Source: a bacterium (GTDB taxonomy: Bacteria > Hydrothermota > Tepidihabitantia > SM23-42 > JAOAFX01). From it: a DNA stretch of 56,770 nt. The stretch is taken from contig DASVHD010000045.1 in the NCBI GenBank assembly GCA_036382775.1, positions 1-56,770 on the forward strand, given 5' to 3'. Made by a program: the position numbers and the translations under genes. Positions 7,010 to 18,721 of the stretch are shown in pieces; the stretch's first letter is position 1; each line of letters opens with the position of its first letter. The notes beneath the pieces were generated by a model. That model ran no database searches and was not told the origin of the DNA. It saw only the letters and a program-made list of their open reading frames with translations.

Positions 7010-9451
7010 ATGATTGACGCCAAGCCAGATAAGCCGGTCTTGCATCGCGATCCGGTTTGCGGAATGGAGATAACAGAAGCAGACGAAGCCGGGCGCTACG
7101 AGTATCATGGTGTTACCTATCATTTTTGCAACCAGAACTGCCTGGACCGTTTCAAGGCGGATCCGGAAAGGTTCCTCGCAAAGCCCAAGCTGATCCTGGA
7201 TGAAAGTCTGGTGAAGAAGATCCCGGGAAGAACCGAGACCGTCATAATGCCGGTATCAGGCATGTCGTGCGCGAGCTGCGTGCTGACCATTGAAAAGACC
7301 ATCAATAGCCTCCCCGGAGTCGCTAATGTCGCGGTCAATTTCGCGGCTGAAAAGGCCGTCATCGAATACGACAAGAAGATCACCACGTTGACGGATATCA
7401 AGAAAGCGATCAAGGATGTCGGGTATGACGTACCTGAAGAACATGAGGCCGGAGAGGACCGCTCGGCAAGCGAATGGCGGAAAGCGAAAGCAAGACTTAT
7501 CACGGCCTGGGCCATAACGCTGCCGATCATTGTGTTGATGCTGCTGGAGATGGGTTTTGGCGTGATGATCCATGGCATGGACATGATCATGCTGGTTCTT
7601 GGAGCCCTGGTGGTCGCGGTACCAGGTTTTGCGACGCTGCGTTCTGCGGTGAACGCGCTTCGCAATGGCGCGGCTTCGATGGATGTGTTGATCGGCATGG
7701 GCACGGTAACCGCTCTTGCGACCGGCGTCTTGCGTATTTTTCACGTGCCGATCGAGAACTACGCCGGGATCTCCGGTATGATCATGGCGTTTCACCTGAC
7801 CGGACGCTATATCGAGACCGTGTCCAGGGGACGGGCATCCCAGGCGATCCAGCGCCTCGTCCAGCTGGGCGCCAAGACCGCGAGGATCCAAAGCGAGGGG
7901 CAGGAAAAAGAGGTCCCGGTCGCCCAGCTCAAGATCGGCGACGTCATGATCGTGAAACCCGGGGAAAAGATACCGACGGACGGCGTGGTCGCTAATGGTG
8001 AATCCAGCGTTGACGAGTCGATGGCGACCGGCGAGTCCATGCCCGTGAAAAAGGGTGTTGGGGATCAAGTTATCGGCGCGACCCTGAACCAGCAGGGGTT
8101 GTTGTCGATCAAGGCGACCAAGGTCGGCAAAGACACATTCCTCGCGCAGGTGATCAAACTGGTCGAGGAATGTCAGGGCACCAAGATCCCGATCCAGGCA
8201 TTCGCCGACCAGGTCACGGCTCGGTTCGTGCCGGTCATTCTCGCCTTGGCACTGCTCGTGTTCGCCGTGTGGGTCTTCGGGGGACAGCATCTACGGCCGG
8301 TCCTGTTCTGGGCTCGGTATTTTTTGCCCTGGGTCAACCCGCAGCTTAATCCTTTGTCCCTGGCCGTGTTCGCCGCCGTCGCGGTCCTGGTCATCGCTTG
8401 TCCCTGCGCGCTGGGTTTAGCAACACCGACCGCCCTGATGGTCGGTACCGGGATCGGCGCCGAGAAAGGCATCTTGTTCCGCTCGGGCGAAGCGGTCCAG
8501 ACATTGAAGGACATTAAGGCGGTTGTATTTGACAAGACCGGCACGATAACGAAAGGCCGGCCCGAGGTGACCGATATCATCAGCACGGGCGAGGGGATGA
8601 CCGAAAATGATGTTCTTGCCTATGCCGCTGCGCTGGAGTCGGGTTCTGAACACCCGCTGGCAAGCGCGATCGTCGAATGGGCACGCGTGCACGGCATCCG
8701 GTTCGATCCACCCGGACATTTCGCGGCGCATTCAGGGAAAGGCGCCAGCGGTATCGTGCGGGGTAAGGAAGTCGTTATCGGCGGCGGCAAATTCATGGAG
8801 GAAATGAGAATAGATCAAGGTTTGTTCCATAAAAAGGCATTGGCGCTCGAGCAGGAAGCAAAAACCGCGGTCCTCGTGGCGGTCGGGGGAAAATTGGCCG
8901 GTATTATCGGCGTCGCCGATACGATCAAGGATGATTCAGCCGCTGCGTTGTCGGCGCTGAAAGCGATGGGTATCGAACTGGTGATGCTGACCGGCGACAA
9001 CGAGCTGACCGGCAGGGCGATCGCGGCCAAGGTCGGGATCGAACGCGTGGTCGCCAATGTCCTGCCCGGCGACAAACAAATGGAGATCGAAAGGCTGCAG
9101 AAGGAATTGGGGTTGGTAGCGATGGTCGGCGATGGTATTAACGATGCGCCCGCCCTGAAGCAGGCGAACGTCGGCATTGCCATCGGCACCGGGACCGATA
9201 TCGCTATCGAATCGTCGGACGTGACGCTGGTCAGGGGTAGCCTGACGGCCGTGGTCACAGCGATTAAGCTGTCGCGCGCTACTTTTAAGAAAATAAAACA
9301 GAACTTGTTCTGGGCGCTGTTCTACAACGTCATCGCGGTACCGCTCGCCATGCTCGGCATGATGCATCCGCTCATCGCCGAGATCGCCATGGCGTTCAGT
9401 TCGATCAACGTGGTGACCAATTCCATCAGCCTGCGCCGGGTCCGGTTATGA
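7010..9451 (+). CDS. copA: Copper-type P1B ATPase with N-terminal YHS and HMA domains
   Basis: An inner-membrane ATPase predicted to export Cu+ from the cytoplasm. The 813 residues run as follows: a YHS domain (about 11-56, with C17, C40 and C44); an HMA metal-binding domain (about 77-141, with GMSCASC giving C87 and C90); two transmembrane pairs; the actuator TGES; the CPC membrane motif [12 protein letters not shown] at about 461-472; the phosphorylation site DKTGT near 507; the SEHPLA motif; and the hinge GDGINDAP near 706. CPC plus an HMA CxxC is typical of the Cu+/Ag+ subgroup, but the metal is inferred rather than shown. YHS domains occur N-terminally in some Cu ATPases and may deliver or sense metal. 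fhs follows 12 nt after the stop and is probably co-transcribed. Translation is apparently leaderless. Confidence 0.93.
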
Positions 9452-9463
9452 AAGGATGTGATA

Positions 9464-11134
<1,671 letters not shown>

Positions 11135-11136
11135 AT

Positions 11137-11236
11137 GTGGGGTCAAATCTCAACAATATAACATGCCGCAATTAGTAATTCTATAACAGTGTAAAAACTT
11201 AATTGTTATAATGTTGAGATTTGATCCCAGGAGTAC
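11137..11236 (+). repeat. 100-bp palindromic element, copy 1 (REP/MITE-like)
   Basis: The ends are inverted repeats of about 25 bp with two mismatches. The left arm begins GGGGTCAAATCTCAACA; the right arm is its complement ending TTGATCCC. It starts 3 nt after the fhs stop. A second copy at 14122-14221 has 7 differences in 100 positions by eye and the same orientation. Short terminally inverted elements like this are often mobilised in trans by REP-associated (IS200-like) transposases. None is encoded in this window. Confidence 0.85.
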
Positions 11237-11238
11237 CC

Positions 11239-11267
11239 AAGGGGAGTGACTAAAAATCACTCCCCTT
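11239..11267 (+). terminator. Rho-independent terminator after fhs
   Basis: A perfect 11-bp stem, AAGGGGAGTGA with TCACTCCCCTT, with a 7-nt A-rich loop, followed by GTTCTATT. It lies between the convergent fhs and beta-propeller genes and could serve both directions. Confidence 0.8.
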
Positions 11268-11299
11268 GTTCTATTACTACGATAATGTCTAACAGATTT

Positions 11300-13603
11300 C
11301 TATCTAACTTTTACTGCTTTGTGTACAATATTTCCATCTACTTCTATGAAATAAATCCCTGGTTTTATCTGCTCTGACATGACAACCTGACCGATGATGT
11401 TAAAAACCTTGTACTTTTTATCCTTTGGTAATCGCAGAAAATCGCTAACGATCGTAGCACCAGATTTGCTGATTTTTATGAAATTGGAATTATTTTCCAC
11501 TATCCCAACCACATCCTTCAAGATCGATACGCTTGAACTGTAATAATTAGCTGCGTAAACGCGGTTTTGAATCGGATTCCAGGCGAAAACCCGGGGACCG
11601 CTCCCCACATTAATATATCCGATTATGCCGTTACTGACACCATTAATAATTGAAACGTAATCATCCGCATAGTTAGCGCAGTAGATTTTGTTGTTATTAG
11701 GATCATGGATCAGCGCCTCAGGGTATTCCCCAACAAACTTGGTAGTTATAATAGAATCTCCTTCGCCATCGATTATGGTTACGCTATAACTGAGCTCATT
11801 AGCGCAATAGACTTTATTGCTGTTTGGATTGTAAATTATGGCACGAGGTTGTATGCCAACTGCAATCGTGGTAATTACCACATCTGTCTCTCCATCAATG
11901 ATCGTTACATTCGTGCCCAGCCAATTAACACAATAGATCTTATTATTGATCGGATTGAAGGCCATTGAAACAGGGCAGTTATCAACAGTGATCAAGTTTA
12001 TCACTGAATCGGTATTGCCGTCAAATACTGTTATATTGTTGTCACCGCTATTAGCACAGTAAACCTTATTGTTGGTTGGATTAAAAACAAATGCACGAGG
12101 GCCATCACCAACGGTGATGGTTATGATAATATCATTAGTGGCGCCGTCGATTATCGTGATATTGTCATTATCGCTGTTTGCGCAATAAACTTTATTGTTG
12201 ATTGGATTGTGCAGCAAGGATGTTGGACTGTATCTAATATCGATTGTCGTAATAACGCTATCAGCCACGCCGTCGATCACGGTTACGTTATTACTTTCCT
12301 CGTTGGCGCAATAAATTGCATTGTTATTGGAATTGTAAGCCAAAGCCACGGGAAAATCACCGACCGGAACCGAAGTGATAACCGAATTAGTTGCTCCGTT
12401 AATAATCGTTGTATTATTGCGCCTCCGATTAGCGCAATAAATCTTATTATTGTATGTATTATATGCCAAAGCGCAGGGCATAGATTGCCCCAAAGCAATC
12501 GTTGCTGTCACAACATTATTGACACCATCGATGACCATAACATTATCGCTGCCCCAGTTCCCGCAAAATACTTTCATATTCGCTGGATTGTAAACTAAAG
12601 CCAAGGGATTATATCCAAGGGCGACTGTAGCGATGACATTATTGCTTGCACCATCAATCACGGTCACACTCTGGCTGTTGCTATTAGCGCAGTAAATTTT
12701 GTTATTGGTTGAATTGTAGATCAGTTCACATGGATTGGAACCCACAGGGATCGTTGCGATGATTCCGTTGGTTGCACCATCGATCACGGTTACATTATTA
12801 CTCCCCGTATTTGCACAGTAAATTTTGCTATTAGTTGAATTGTACGCCAGGGCATGCGGACCAGATCCAACAGGGACCGTGGTGATGACCGCATTGGTCG
12901 CGCCATCGATTACGGTGATATCACCACTTCCTTCATTGGTGCAATAGATCTTATTATTAATCGGGTTGTAAACCAGCGCAGACGGCCATGTTCCTGCCGA
13001 AATTGTCACGATGACCGAATCGGACGCGCCATCAATCACAGTGATATCATCACTTAAATAATTTGTGTTATAAACTCTATTATTAGTTGAATTATATGCC
13101 AGAGCCCTTGGTGCGGTCCCGACTGCAACCCATCTGATAACATTATTGGTAGCGCCATCAATTATTGTGATATTATCACTCCATTGATTGGTACAATATA
13201 TTTTATTATTGGTGCGATTGTGAGTTAACGCATATGGATAACCTCCTACTGACACAGTGGTGATCAAAGAATTAGTTGCACCATCAATGACCATGACATC
13301 ATGGTTGCTTATGCGAGTGCAATAAACTTTATTATCTATAGAATTATGGATCAATGCGCAAACATAATAACCAGTGTCAGATGCTATCCTGGCAATCCCC
13401 TTATCGGTTGCACCATCAATTGCAATCACATAATATTTACCACCGACATATATCGTATTATTTATGTCATTATAGGCAAGGGAGTATGGTCCCTGTAGTC
13501 CGCAATAGGAATCGGGCACACAAATCGTTGTTTCCAGCCACTGAGCACTGGTTACACTTATGAATATAAAGAATATACCTATATAAAATTTTGTCGTATT
13601 CAT
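11300..13603 (-). CDS. Secreted YVTN-type beta-propeller protein with Por/T9SS-type sorting domain
   Basis: A 767-residue secreted protein. The ATG at 13603 is preferred over an upstream in-frame start because AGAGGG precedes it and a signal peptide follows at once (MNTTKFYIGIFFIFISVTSAQ region). Residues about 40-690 are 15 full and one partial repeat of about 42 residues. Each carries a core like VIDGATNxVI, then VGxxPxAL, then YNxxNNKIYCAN, i.e. YVTN/NHL-like propeller blades, enough for two propellers. The last 75 residues (YKVFNIIGQVV, then GIYFIEVDG, ending KAVKVR) match the type-A C-terminal sorting domain that directs T9SS export in Bacteroidetes. The gene is much more AT-rich than fhs and lies between two copies of a palindromic element, suggesting transfer. 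Ligand unknown; an extracellular or surface role is inferred. Confidence 0.85.
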   Translation of the reverse strand: MNTTKFYIGIFFIFISVTSAQWLETTICVPDSYCGLQGPYSLAYNDINNTIYVGGKYYVIAIDGATDKGIARIASDTGYYVCALIHNSIDNKVYCTRISNHDVMVIDGATNSLITTVSVGGYPYALTHNRTNNKIYCTNQWSDNITIIDGATNNVIRWVAVGTAPRALAYNSTNNRVYNTNYLSDDITVIDGASDSVIVTISAGTWPSALVYNPINNKIYCTNEGSGDITVIDGATNAVITTVPVGSGPHALAYNSTNSKIYCANTGSNNVTVIDGATNGIIATIPVGSNPCELIYNSTNNKIYCANSNSQSVTVIDGASNNVIATVALGYNPLALVYNPANMKVFCGNWGSDNVMVIDGVNNVVTATIALGQSMPCALAYNTYNNKIYCANRRRNNTTIINGATNSVITSVPVGDFPVALAYNSNNNAIYCANEESNNVTVIDGVADSVITTIDIRYSPTSLLHNPINNKVYCANSDNDNITIIDGATNDIIITITVGDGPRAFVFNPTNNKVYCANSGDNNITVFDGNTDSVINLITVDNCPVSMAFNPINNKIYCVNWLGTNVTIIDGETDVVITTIAVGIQPRAIIYNPNSNKVYCANELSYSVTIIDGEGDSIITTKFVGEYPEALIHDPNNNKIYCANYADDYVSIINGVSNGIIGYINVGSGPRVFAWNPIQNRVYAANYYSSSVSILKDVVGIVENNSNFIKISKSGATIVSDFLRLPKDKKYKVFNIIGQVVMSEQIKPGIYFIEVDGNIVHKAVKVR

Positions 13604-13617
13604 AAACCCTCTAGTAA

Positions 13618-13645
13618 ATTGTATACCAAACGATTCCGATGTCAA
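13618..13645 (-). promoter_or_regulatory. Promoter of the beta-propeller gene
   Basis: Minus-strand TTGACA (13645-13640), 16-bp spacer, TACAAT (13623-13618), then AGAGGG and the ATG at 13603. Confidence 0.75.
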
Positions 13646-13709
13646 GGCATTCCTGAGGACTGTTAGGCCACTACGCGGTGTTATGCAGGTTGACCCTGCC
13701 TTGATGATC

Positions 13710-14118
13710 AGCTTTTTACTAGATACCCGAGATCGGTCAACGTTTCAATGAATTCGTTAAAATCCCGGTCAGCGTACGCGCGGACCGGTGAAGAGCGTGA
13801 CCCCGGGCGCGACCTTTTCCGGCGCGCCGCCTGTGAAGATGATCACTTGCACCCGGTTGAGCTTGGTATAAACGTTGATCTAATTAACCTGCCCCTTTAA
13901 GATCCGGGTGCTGACAAGATCTTTGCCCCGGCGCAGGGTTATGCCCTGGGCATCTACCGTCACCGAACGGATCACGTTTTTCTGCCACAGCATGTAATCA
14001 ACCAGCATGTAAAGCCGATAAAAATGCTGCCGATTATGAACAGCCCGAGCGTGAAGATCGTCCGTATGAAAAGCAGCAACAGCAATAAAATGATCCCAAT
14101 GATTACGCCGCCCGCGCA
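13710..14118 (-). pseudogene. Truncated, frameshifted paralogue of the PH-like membrane protein at 18008-18721
   Basis: Nucleotide similarity to the 3' two-thirds of 18008-18721 is obvious by eye. Long stretches such as CCCGAGCGTGAAGATCGTCC are identical, and the segment coding YMLVDYMLWQKN aligns with YMLVDYLMWHKN of the intact gene. Relative to the paralogue there is a deletion of about 26 nt near 13775 (the part coding FTGPRVRLTNDAFA), an in-frame stop after KGQVN, and a small indel near 14008. The homology stops abruptly next to palindromic element copy 2 at 14122, so the N-terminal third is missing. It cannot make the full protein. Confidence 0.85.
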
Positions 14119-14121
14119 AAA

Positions 14122-14221
14122 GTGGGGTCAAATCTCAACAATATAACATACTGCGATTAGTAATTCTGTAACAGTATATAAACTTAATTGTTATAATGTT
14201 GAGATTTGACCCCAGGAGTAC
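14122..14221 (+). repeat. 100-bp palindromic element, copy 2 (REP/MITE-like)
   Basis: Same length, orientation and inverted ends as the copy at 11137-11236, with 7 differences by eye, mainly in the centre. It abuts the broken end of the pseudogene on its left. On its right it is followed within 50 nt by the end of a GWxTD gene. Confidence 0.85.
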
Positions 14222-14269: not shown

Positions 14270-15571
14270 CTACTTGCCCGTCAGCTCGAATTCAAAAATT
14301 GCCGCGCATTCCTTGCGGGCCATGATATCCGTGTCGTGGGAAATTATCATGTATTTTCCCGCGGGCAGGTCCATGGGGTGATATTTTGTGGTCAGGTAGG
14401 CGGTCCGCCCCTTTCCGATCTCTTCCTGGATCATGACATCAACGATCTCCTTTTTCATTTTGACCTTATTATACACTTCATAGGTGGTCCGCAGCTGGTG
14501 CAGACTATCATCGGTCTCCAAATTATAGACTTCATGATACAGATAAAAGGGTTTATGCACAGAAAACGTATTTTTAGCCAGAGGGATGAACCGGCCCGGT
14601 GGCTTGCGGAATTTTTCAACCGTAGCGAAATTATCGATCAGTATCGCGGGTACAAGGTCGCTAATCTTTTTCGCCTCCTCGGCATATTCCAGGAGATTTA
14701 AATTAAGATCTTTTTTACCCACCTTACGGTTCTTTAGATCATACAGGCGATAAACAGCGCGATACTGTCTTGGCTCAAGCCATAAATTCAGTTCATCATA
14801 ATATATGCCCGCGCCTTCTCCAACGGACTTTAATGATCTTCGTGATTCGTAGACCAGACTATCATTGCGGCGGTCATAAACCTCGGTCACCTGGAGAAAT
14901 AGCAGTGACGTATCGGCGATTTCAATATTCAGGTACAGCTCTACGCGAGTCAAACCTTTTTCCTGGATGAACCGCCCGAATGTCAGATCAAAATCTAAAA
15001 CCCCGGTTGATTCTGCGGTCATGTTGCTTTCGGTCGTATCTTCATTCAGGTAGTTGATCTTTGCCTGTTCCCCAAATTCGGTCATCGCGATATTTTTAAA
15101 TGCCCGGAATTCCTGGACAAAATCGAATTCGATGCCAATACTTTTGTAGGTCCAGATCTCGGCCGGTTTTACGATCTCTTTTGATGCGCTCATCATCATC
15201 TTCTGCTGGTTGTATACGGTCCGGTCAGTGGGCATCCCGTATTTTATATAGACCGGCAGCCGGTCGTCATTCAGGGGTTCATACCGGCCGAATTCCCGAA
15301 AGGCAAAGTCAGTCCGTTCCTCGAATTCGCTTCTTTTCTCCTCGTTACCCTGCCAGTACGCGTCACAGAACGAGGCTCTTTCGCTCGCTGATGTCAGGTC
15401 CAGGTACGTCGCTGCCAGGCTGGAATCGGTCGCCTTGAATCCAAGGAACGTTTTTTTCTCTTTATCGGTCAGGCGATAATACCGCGCGGCCAGGCGATGC
15501 ATGTAGCTAAGGCTGCACCCCGCGACGATCACGGCCAGCAGTACAATTTTAATACAACGGCTCTTTATCAT
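14270..15571 (-). CDS. GWxTD-domain lipoprotein
   Basis: A 433-residue predicted lipoprotein. The ATG at 15571 gives a clean N-terminus: basic residues, the hydrophobic stretch IVLLAVIVAG, then Cys in a VAGC lipobox. An in-frame ATG at 15598 is a weaker alternative that puts nine extra residues before the signal. The middle holds the GWxTD-type region: a DAYWQGNEEK segment, then EFEERTDFAFREFGRY, then LPVYIKYGMPTDR and an EIWTYKS strand. The C-terminal half is rich in beta strands. GWxTD proteins are common in Acidobacteria and FCB-related lineages; their function is not established. It lies 29 nt downstream of the LVIVD gene on the same strand, so the two are probably one operon with the promoter at 16682. 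A second GWxTD gene is at 16779. Confidence 0.75.
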   Translation of the reverse strand: MIKSRCIKIVLLAVIVAGCSLSYMHRLAARYYRLTDKEKKTFLGFKATDSSLAATYLDLTSASERASFCDAYWQGNEEKRSEFEERTDFAFREFGRYEPLNDDRLPVYIKYGMPTDRTVYNQQKMMMSASKEIVKPAEIWTYKSIGIEFDFVQEFRAFKNIAMTEFGEQAKINYLNEDTTESNMTAESTGVLDFDLTFGRFIQEKGLTRVELYLNIEIADTSLLFLQVTEVYDRRNDSLVYESRRSLKSVGEGAGIYYDELNLWLEPRQYRAVYRLYDLKNRKVGKKDLNLNLLEYAEEAKKISDLVPAILIDNFATVEKFRKPPGRFIPLAKNTFSVHKPFYLYHEVYNLETDDSLHQLRTTYEVYNKVKMKKEIVDVMIQEEIGKGRTAYLTTKYHPMDLPAGKYMIISHDTDIMARKECAAIFEFELTGK

Positions 15572-16778: not shown

Positions 16779-18011
16779 ATGCTGGCGTTAATGCTTTTTC
16801 AGGTTTTGCCCCTTGAAGTCGATTGTTATCGGTTCGGACAGAACCAGGTGGAATGCTGGTACCAGATCGACCTGGCTGCCATTCGCACAGCCACTGGACA
16901 GGATACGGCTTTCAAGAGTTATTCATACCGTTTCGTGGTACGATCAGTGACAAATCAGGATTCGATCGTCCGAGAAGGCAGAAAAGTCGCCAGCACCGCC
17001 GGCCTTGGCGCCGGCAGTTACATTCTTGATTTTGTGCAGCTACACCTCTTCCCCGGAACGTTCACCTATCGGTTGGAAATCACCGCCGGGGATAGCACGG
17101 CAACAAAAGAAGACACTATCATGGTGGAATCCGACACCGTAGTTTTTAGTGCCAGCGATATTATTCTTTCTAAGAAAAATCTTGCAGGTTCCAGGCCTTC
17201 CAGCAGTGGTCATGAATTTATCCCCATGGTCGCGCCAGAGTACACTTTTACCGATACGCTTGTTTCTTACATGGAAATCTACGGGCTTGTGCCCGACAGC
17301 CTGTTTTACGAAGTCATATATGAGATAATTGACCGTGACGACAGATCAATCTGCGGAAAAAGCGTGAAACGGACCAAATATGCCTATAATCAGGTCGACA
17401 CGTTGAATGTTCCTTTGCGGGATCTGGACAACGGTGATTTTGAGCTTAGCTTGACTATCATTGATCCGGCACAGGATCAAAAACTCAATAGAAGCGCGCC
17501 GTTTGTGGTCAGACCGGGTCCGGATTCGCTGGTTTTGAAAAACATGGCGTACTGCCATGAGATCCAGTATCTCGTTTCAGACGCTGAATACAAAAAATTC
17601 AGCAAACTGGATGAAAAAGAGAAAGCCGGCTATCTCGTTAAGTTCTGGCTGAAGAACGATTATCATCTTTTTGAGCAGAGAATGCTATTGGCCGACGAAA
17701 AATTTTCGACCTCAAGATGCCAGGGGAAAGATAGTTACCGGGGCCGGTTCTATATATTAAAAGGACCGCCGGATGAAATTGAATCAATGCCCATGCTGAA
17801 CTGGGCAAGACCGCTAGAATTGTGGCATTATTACGCGCTGGGATTTTCGGCGCTCTTTTGCGATAAAAAACAGGACGGTAATCCGCTCCTGATCAAGGTC
17901 TTAAAAAGCGGTGAAAGTTACGATGAAGAAAGCGTCTTGAGGGATATCGCACCGGGGACCTTTAAAGCAGAGCGCACGCCTGAAGACGAAGAGTGGGATA
18001 AAACGCGCTAA
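16779..18011 (+). CDS. GWxTD-domain protein
   Basis: A 410-residue protein with a beta-rich N-terminal two-thirds and a C-terminal GWxTD-type domain. The domain reads SDAEYKKFSKLDEKEK, then a FWLKNDYHLFEQRM segment, then SYRGRFYILKGPPDEIES with RPLELWHYY. The RGxxYIxxGPPDEIE signature is closer to the family consensus than in the paralogue at 14270. Only a weak hydrophobic N-terminus (MLALMLFQVLPL) is seen; export is likely but not certain. AGAAGGA precedes the ATG. Its stop codon overlaps the stop of the convergent membrane-protein gene at 18008. The function of GWxTD proteins is not known; surface or cell-envelope roles are usually assumed. Confidence 0.75.
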   Translation: MLALMLFQVLPLEVDCYRFGQNQVECWYQIDLAAIRTATGQDTAFKSYSYRFVVRSVTNQDSIVREGRKVASTAGLGAGSYILDFVQLHLFPGTFTYRLEITAGDSTATKEDTIMVESDTVVFSASDIILSKKNLAGSRPSSSGHEFIPMVAPEYTFTDTLVSYMEIYGLVPDSLFYEVIYEIIDRDDRSICGKSVKRTKYAYNQVDTLNVPLRDLDNGDFELSLTIIDPAQDQKLNRSAPFVVRPGPDSLVLKNMAYCHEIQYLVSDAEYKKFSKLDEKEKAGYLVKFWLKNDYHLFEQRMLLADEKFSTSRCQGKDSYRGRFYILKGPPDEIESMPMLNWARPLELWHYYALGFSALFCDKKQDGNPLLIKVLKSGESYDEESVLRDIAPGTFKAERTPEDEEWDKTR

Positions 18012-18721
18012 CTATTTTTTACGGGATATCCTAACCCTTTCAGTGTCTTGATAAATTCGTCAAAATCGCGATCGGCGAACGCGTCGTTCGTCAGACGGAC
18101 CCGCGGTCCGGTGAAGAGCGTGACGCCGGGCGCGACTTTTTCCGGCGTGCCGCCCGTGAAGATCACGATCTGCGCGCGGTTGAGCTTATAGTAAACGTTC
18201 ACCTGGCTGACCTGTTCTTTCAGGATCCGGCTTGAGATAAGGGCTTCACCGCGTCGCAGGGCGATGCCCTGTCCATCGACCGTCACCATCCGCACGCCAT
18301 TTTTGTGCCACATCAGATAATCAACCAGCATGTAAAGCGCGATAATAAAACTTCCGATGATGAAAAGCCCGAGCGTGAAGATCGTCCGTATGAAAAGCAG
18401 CAACAACAGCAAAATGATTCCAACGATCACGCCGCCCAGGTTTACGATCAGGAGCGAGCCGCGAGAGGCGGTCATGGAAAAAAATGCATTTTTGTCTTTT
18501 TGCTCTTTTATCTGCTGTATTTCATAACGGTCAGGGCGATAACGGCTTTCCATGACCCTGACGGTCAACTGCTGAAGGATCTGCAGTTCGTCATCCAGCT
18601 TACTCCCCGGCGTCGTTTCATCGATGCGGATCCTTTCCACTTCTTTGCCGGTAGTTTTTTCCCGGACGACCACGAAATAATCGAAGCCGTTACAAATACC
18701 CGGTTGTTTTATTTCGGTCAT
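18008..18721 (-). CDS. Membrane protein with C-terminal PH-like domain
   Basis: A 237-residue protein of unknown function. Residues 1-85 are soluble and charged. Residues about 88-133 form two close transmembrane helices (VNLGGVIVGIILLLLLLF; FTLGLFIIGSFIIALYMLV). The remainder looks like a small beta-rich bacterial PH-type domain (VRMVTVDGQGIALRRGEAL, then QVSQVNVYYKLN) ending in a helix. The architecture resembles membrane PH-domain proteins, but I do not recognise a named family. A broken paralogue lies at 13710. Translation is apparently leaderless: the ATG is 6 nt after the -10 box and no Shine-Dalgarno is present. The stop codon overlaps that of the convergent GWxTD gene. Confidence 0.75.
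   Translation of the reverse strand: MTEIKQPGICNGFDYFVVVREKTTGKEVERIRIDETTPGSKLDDELQILQQLTVRVMESRYRPDRYEIQQIKEQKDKNAFFSMTASRGSLLIVNLGGVIVGIILLLLLLFIRTIFTLGLFIIGSFIIALYMLVDYLMWHKNGVRMVTVDGQGIALRRGEALISSRILKEQVSQVNVYYKLNRAQIVIFTGGTPEKVAPGVTLFTGPRVRLTNDAFADRDFDEFIKTLKGLGYPVKNS

Follow-up and report, generated by a model that had tools for sequence, protein, structure and literature searches.

The two short direct repeats studied here are non-autonomous members of the TIRYT/TIRtron family, a known but little-studied group of transposons of the single-strand (HUH/Y1) kind. They lie in a stretch of 56,770 nucleotides, hereafter the window (contig DASVHD010000045.1 of assembly GCA_036382775.1), where they bracket a gene for a secreted beta-propeller protein. 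In the reading that we favour, with a probability of about 0.7, they are transposase-less TIRYT miniatures whose common ancestor was copied locally by a CA-type TIRYT, and which enclose the propeller gene as a resident bystander.

Two TIR dimers between gene ends

The repeated units are 107 bp each, lie in the same orientation 2985 bp apart (start to start) and are 92% identical. This bears out the initial annotation, which had described two direct elements of about 100 bp at this spacing. Its description of them as palindromic holds in that each carries inverted 26-nt arms (92% and 96% complementary) and folds into a long hairpin (z = -6.5 and -8.9, better than any shuffled sequence), but they are TIR dimers with 40 nt between the arms and not perfect 100-bp palindromes. 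The 18-nt core of the arms occurs four times in the window against 0.05 expected, and the differences between the left and right elements fall mostly in the 40-nt loop, not in the arms. The repeat runs past the TIRs by 8 bp on the left (6/8 identical) and 7 bp on the right (7/7), and the outer bases common to both elements read GGAGTAC. Scanned for exact copies of the arms in the window, the GTDB genomes gave no match.

Table 1. Features at and near the paired elements, in window coordinates
Feature	Coordinates	Strand	Remarks
fhs (formate-tetrahydrofolate ligase), host gene left of left element	9458-11134	+	
Left element, 92-bp non-autonomous TIR dimer (MITE)	11138-11229	+	arms 11138-11163 and 11204-11229; repeated unit 11130-11236
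Bracketed secreted YVTN/YncE-type beta-propeller gene	11300-13603	-	ORF from 13645 by TTG; ATG at 13603 likely
Pseudogene, decayed partial copy of gene 18008-18721	13713-14113	-	about 80% identical, stops, frameshifts
Right element, 92-bp non-autonomous TIR dimer (MITE)	14123-14214	+	arms 14123-14148 and 14189-14214; repeated unit 14115-14221
GWxTD-domain-like lipoprotein gene, host gene right of right element	14270-15571	-	NCBIfam match weak, under the cut-off
Intact 237-aa paralog; its family gave rise to the pseudogene	18008-18721	-	

Both elements sit at gene ends (Table 1). Only 3 bp separate the stop codon of fhs from the left TIR, and the left element lies where fhs and the propeller gene converge with their 3' ends; the right element lies just beyond the 3' end of the GWxTD gene at 14270. 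The pseudogene matches 18015-18437, inside an intact gene 4 kb away, and this homology ends abruptly at 14113, which is 9 bp before the right TIR and 2 bp before the repeated unit (14115). The right element thus marks a breakpoint, and the truncated gene copy said to abut it is indeed there. Directly upstream of fhs, 7010-9451 encodes a heavy-metal P-type ATPase with HMA and YHS domains; the same adjacency is seen in G043, from another family of the class.

A family with its own transposase

Searching the 3.06-Mb assembly for the TIR core TGGGGTCAAATCTCAACA with at most 3 mismatches yielded 21 sites, compared with 3 for the reversed sequence used as control. Most of these sites are inverted TGGGGTCAAATCTNNACA pairs 92-220 bp apart, and such dimers occur on C5 (two), C28, C35, C36 and C42 in addition to the two in the window. 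C29:45826-46908 is an intact 1083-bp unit whose identical 27-bp TIRs flank the gene for a 330-aa Y1 (HUH) transposase. The protein matches the Y1_Tnp domain and, below cut-off, the NCBIfam model REP_Tyr_transpos for REP-associated tyrosine transposases (E 1.8e-15); its motifs are HFH within NHFHLLI and YLHLNP, the latter replaced by YLHLNI or YLHLNS in some relatives. About 200 conserved residues extend beyond the transposase core; for these Pfam gives neither a Bac_DnaA_C nor an HTH match, even with E values as high as 5 allowed. The further copies and the IS200-like transposase that the initial annotation proposed to look for are both present in the genome, the transposase gene between matching inverted repeats, supporting the assignment of the window elements to an IS200-like (Y1) transposase system. 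Separately, a second TIRYT-like subfamily is represented at C34:3220-3471 (L028), where 27-bp inverted repeats GGGGTCAGCCCTCGAAATTAGAAATTA enclose the remnant of a Y1 transposase gene interrupted by stops.

The family extends well beyond this genome. Of 65 genomes of the class searched by pattern, 20 contain the TIR, nearly all of them from one order, against 0 for the reversed control, and at least 10 complete units of 1061-1070 bp were found beyond the one on C29 (in G008, G010, G013 (two), G017 (two), G022, G023 (two) and G024), encoding transposases of 328-330 aa. The two ends of an element are matched: 31 of 33 complete elements carry the same variable TIR dinucleotide (NN) at either end, whereas shuffling gives a mean of 6.5 and a maximum of 17. 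There is no consistent target-site duplication across the 33; immediate duplication is absent in 27 and amounts to 2-3 bp in the other six. When a G013 unit was compared with three genomes of the same genus, the match to the right outer flank began only about 300 bp outside the unit and the left flank had none, giving no clean empty site.

Several observations concern how these elements sit in their surroundings. Among the 33 (for example L187-L199), CG-type elements often have AAAG next to one end and TATCC next to the other, which suggests either a target preference or true ends that lie outside the TIR. At an orthologous locus (G013 L195 versus G015 L187), the 103-bp TIR element of G013 carries a nested repeat of about 214 bp with its own inverted ends (CAGGCTGACCGAGAA...), and the same end is found inside TIR sequences at several other loci, suggesting that this repeat targets TIR sequences. 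We set aside ACAGGCTGACCGAGAA, a candidate variant of the TIR right end, which at one locus proved to be a different repeat nested inside a TIR element. At the end of contig G024:C77 (L154), a 171-aa nucleotidyltransferase-like ORF lies between two TIR ends on the same strand, at a spacing of 1047 bp.

Local copying and its alternatives

The arms in the window are of the CA type and those of the resident C29 unit are of the TC type. In a small tree, the CA-type transposases of G008, G023 and G024 make up a clade of their own (support 1.0); no CA-type transposase was found in this assembly. Its other eight Y1 loci include none that closely resembles a CA-type TIRYT, the best match to a CA-type protein being 37% over a 90-residue fragment, from which we infer that the CA-type helper was lost or is unassembled. 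Against 147 genomes of the phylum, the window element gave only TIR-length or weak partial matches outside its own genome, among them the CA-type units G024:C72 and G008:C55.

We suggest that these elements, being DNA bounded by inverted TGGGGTCAAATCTNNACA repeats, depend on a Y1/HUH tyrosine transposase acting in trans, which would copy them by recognising their paired ends as a single strand. Both window elements probably descend from one ancestor, which may have been copied locally by a now-missing CA-type TIRYT, with the copies inserted in non-coding DNA where genes end. A decaying duplicate of gene 18008-18721 would have been truncated by the insertion on the right or by a rearrangement there afterwards. 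Family membership, the autonomous copy in this genome, the matched ends and the lack of a consistent target duplication are observed, whereas we infer single-strand mobilisation, local copying and the role of the propeller as resident bystander. Against this reading count the missing CA-type transposase and the side-by-side placement of the only two copies of the subfamily, which needs either local copying or co-movement.

A similar arrangement at a second locus bears on this choice. At C5:77912-80369 (L035:3913-6370), two direct TIR elements of 213 and 220 bp, from a different subfamily than those of the window, bracket a single gene for a 592-aa TcmP-radical-SAM fusion protein with 30% GC in a setting of 41-46%. 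That protein also matches PADLOC candidate-defence models. With the same layout at two loci and in two subfamilies, direct pairing by chance is unlikely: for 12 randomly placed elements, at least two direct neighbour pairs within 3 kb, a limit chosen after the data were seen, have P ~0.002. The window and C5 subfamilies each occur almost only as their direct pair, a pattern for which local copying and co-movement are equally good explanations. We considered L161 of G015 as a third example and dropped it, since the 220-bp repeats of that direct pair are of another make-up.

A segmental duplication or recombination, in which the element and a few flanking bases were copied by a local rearrangement that also yielded the partial copy of gene 18008-18721, seems to us unlikely. 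It would account for the extension of the window repeat beyond its TIRs, for the closeness of the end of pseudogene homology to the start of the repeated unit, and for the bases shared by the C5 pair outside its TIRs (6 bp on the left, GGTATA, and 3 on the right). Yet the flanks otherwise diverge at once, and identity is higher between the two elements (92%) than between the gene and its partial copy (80%). Moreover, dispersed copies of another subfamily also share flank (AAAG at one end, seen at several loci). Common flank bases can thus be explained by target preference, and the outer GGAGTAC of the window and GGTATA of C5 could reflect either carried flank or target choice.

It is also rather improbable that the direct elements form the outer ends of a composite cassette, inserted as one unit of element, cargo and element and able to move again by Y1 single-strand transposition. 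The occurrence of direct same-subfamily pairs around one AT-rich gene at both loci and the pairing statistic speak for it, as does the sparse distribution of the full-length TcmP-radical-SAM protein, found in only one other of 63 genomes (G015). That relative, 55% identical and with an internal stop, has no TIRs within the flanks examined, which counts against a cassette, and a second copy of the bracketed block of the window was not found. The DNA between the window elements, holding as it does a decayed copy of a gene 4 kb away, suggests resident DNA.

The base composition of the propeller gene had been taken as a sign of foreign cargo. The gene is AT-rich as claimed (GC 0.404 and GC3 0.41, against 0.565 and 0.71 for fhs), but it belongs to a family with multiple copies both in this genome and in the order, and its C-terminal region is common to many other proteins of the same genome. 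Unbracketed paralogs have GC3 of 0.35-0.46, with no TIRs in the flanks examined, so low GC is uninformative about transfer by these elements; we rejected it as a sign of transfer. Nor do relatives show the block coming or going: compared through fhs, the GWxTD gene and gene 18008-18721, they are too distant and synteny is lost. In the closest genomes fhs is only about 70% identical, almost no local gene order is kept (only G043 retains the neighbouring ATPase gene), and no excision or insertion was seen as a presence/absence polymorphism among the genomes compared at this distance. We give still less credence to the broader proposition that direct pairs of TIRYT miniatures, exemplified by the window and C5, are cassettes moved by Y1/HUH as one single-stranded unit.

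Finally, retention of the elements, whatever their origin, as structural RNA or DNA signals at gene ends (bidirectional terminators or mRNA 3' hairpins) is very improbable, since their positions beside 3' ends and their long stems, nearly perfect over 18 bp, are offset by the lack of a T-run after the stem, the presence of only two copies and the fact that the same TIR family encloses transposases.

Relation to known systems

At present the finding amounts to an ordinary, well-anchored annotation of two MITEs. If the paired layout is truly mobile, it would represent a gene-carrying, composite-transposon mode for TIRtrons. Composite transposons built from direct MITEs or ISs likewise place two direct elements around an accessory gene; for the window, in contrast, no second bracketed block was found in its own genome. 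The REPIN/RAYT systems (Nunvar 2010, PMC2817692; Bertels and Rainey 2011, PMC3116915) resemble the present one in that a Y1 transposase is associated with short, palindromic dimers that are not autonomous, but here the arms are not self-complementary, the ends lack a GTAG tag and the copy number is low. We rejected an identity of the arms with REPs because single arms do not fold (0 kcal/mol), whereas the dimers do. With the IS200/IS605 elements the family shares a Y1 HUH transposase and the lack of a consistent target duplication; those elements have subterminal hairpins in place of TIRs, in contrast to the perfect 27-bp TIRs of the C29 unit, and the transposase here matches the REP-associated model.

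The closest likeness is to the TIRYT/TIRtron group described by Di Nocera et al. (2013, PMC3733652), which probably corresponds to TnpAY1 subclass 2.1 (Quentin et al. 2018, PMC6006769) and also to RAYT group 1. In common with that group, the C29 unit and the ten other units have a RAYT-like Y1 gene (about 330 aa) between long TIRs that begin GGGGTCA- and are unrelated to REPs, TIR dimers are dispersed in the genome, and the protein carries the HuH and Y---NP motifs of class 2 TnpAY1. The motif GGGGWSAS, common to some or most TIRYT TIRs though not all (PMC3733652), is fitted by the arms here (GGGGTCAA) at 7 of 8 positions, the eighth being A and not C or G; the C-terminal DnaA-like domain of TIRYTs has no Pfam detection in our protein. 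Very few papers have dealt with TIRYT systems. Here many complete units with matched, subtype-specific ends are spread across one candidate order, which makes that order well suited to studying how TIRs, in place of hairpins, are recognised by a Y1 transposase.
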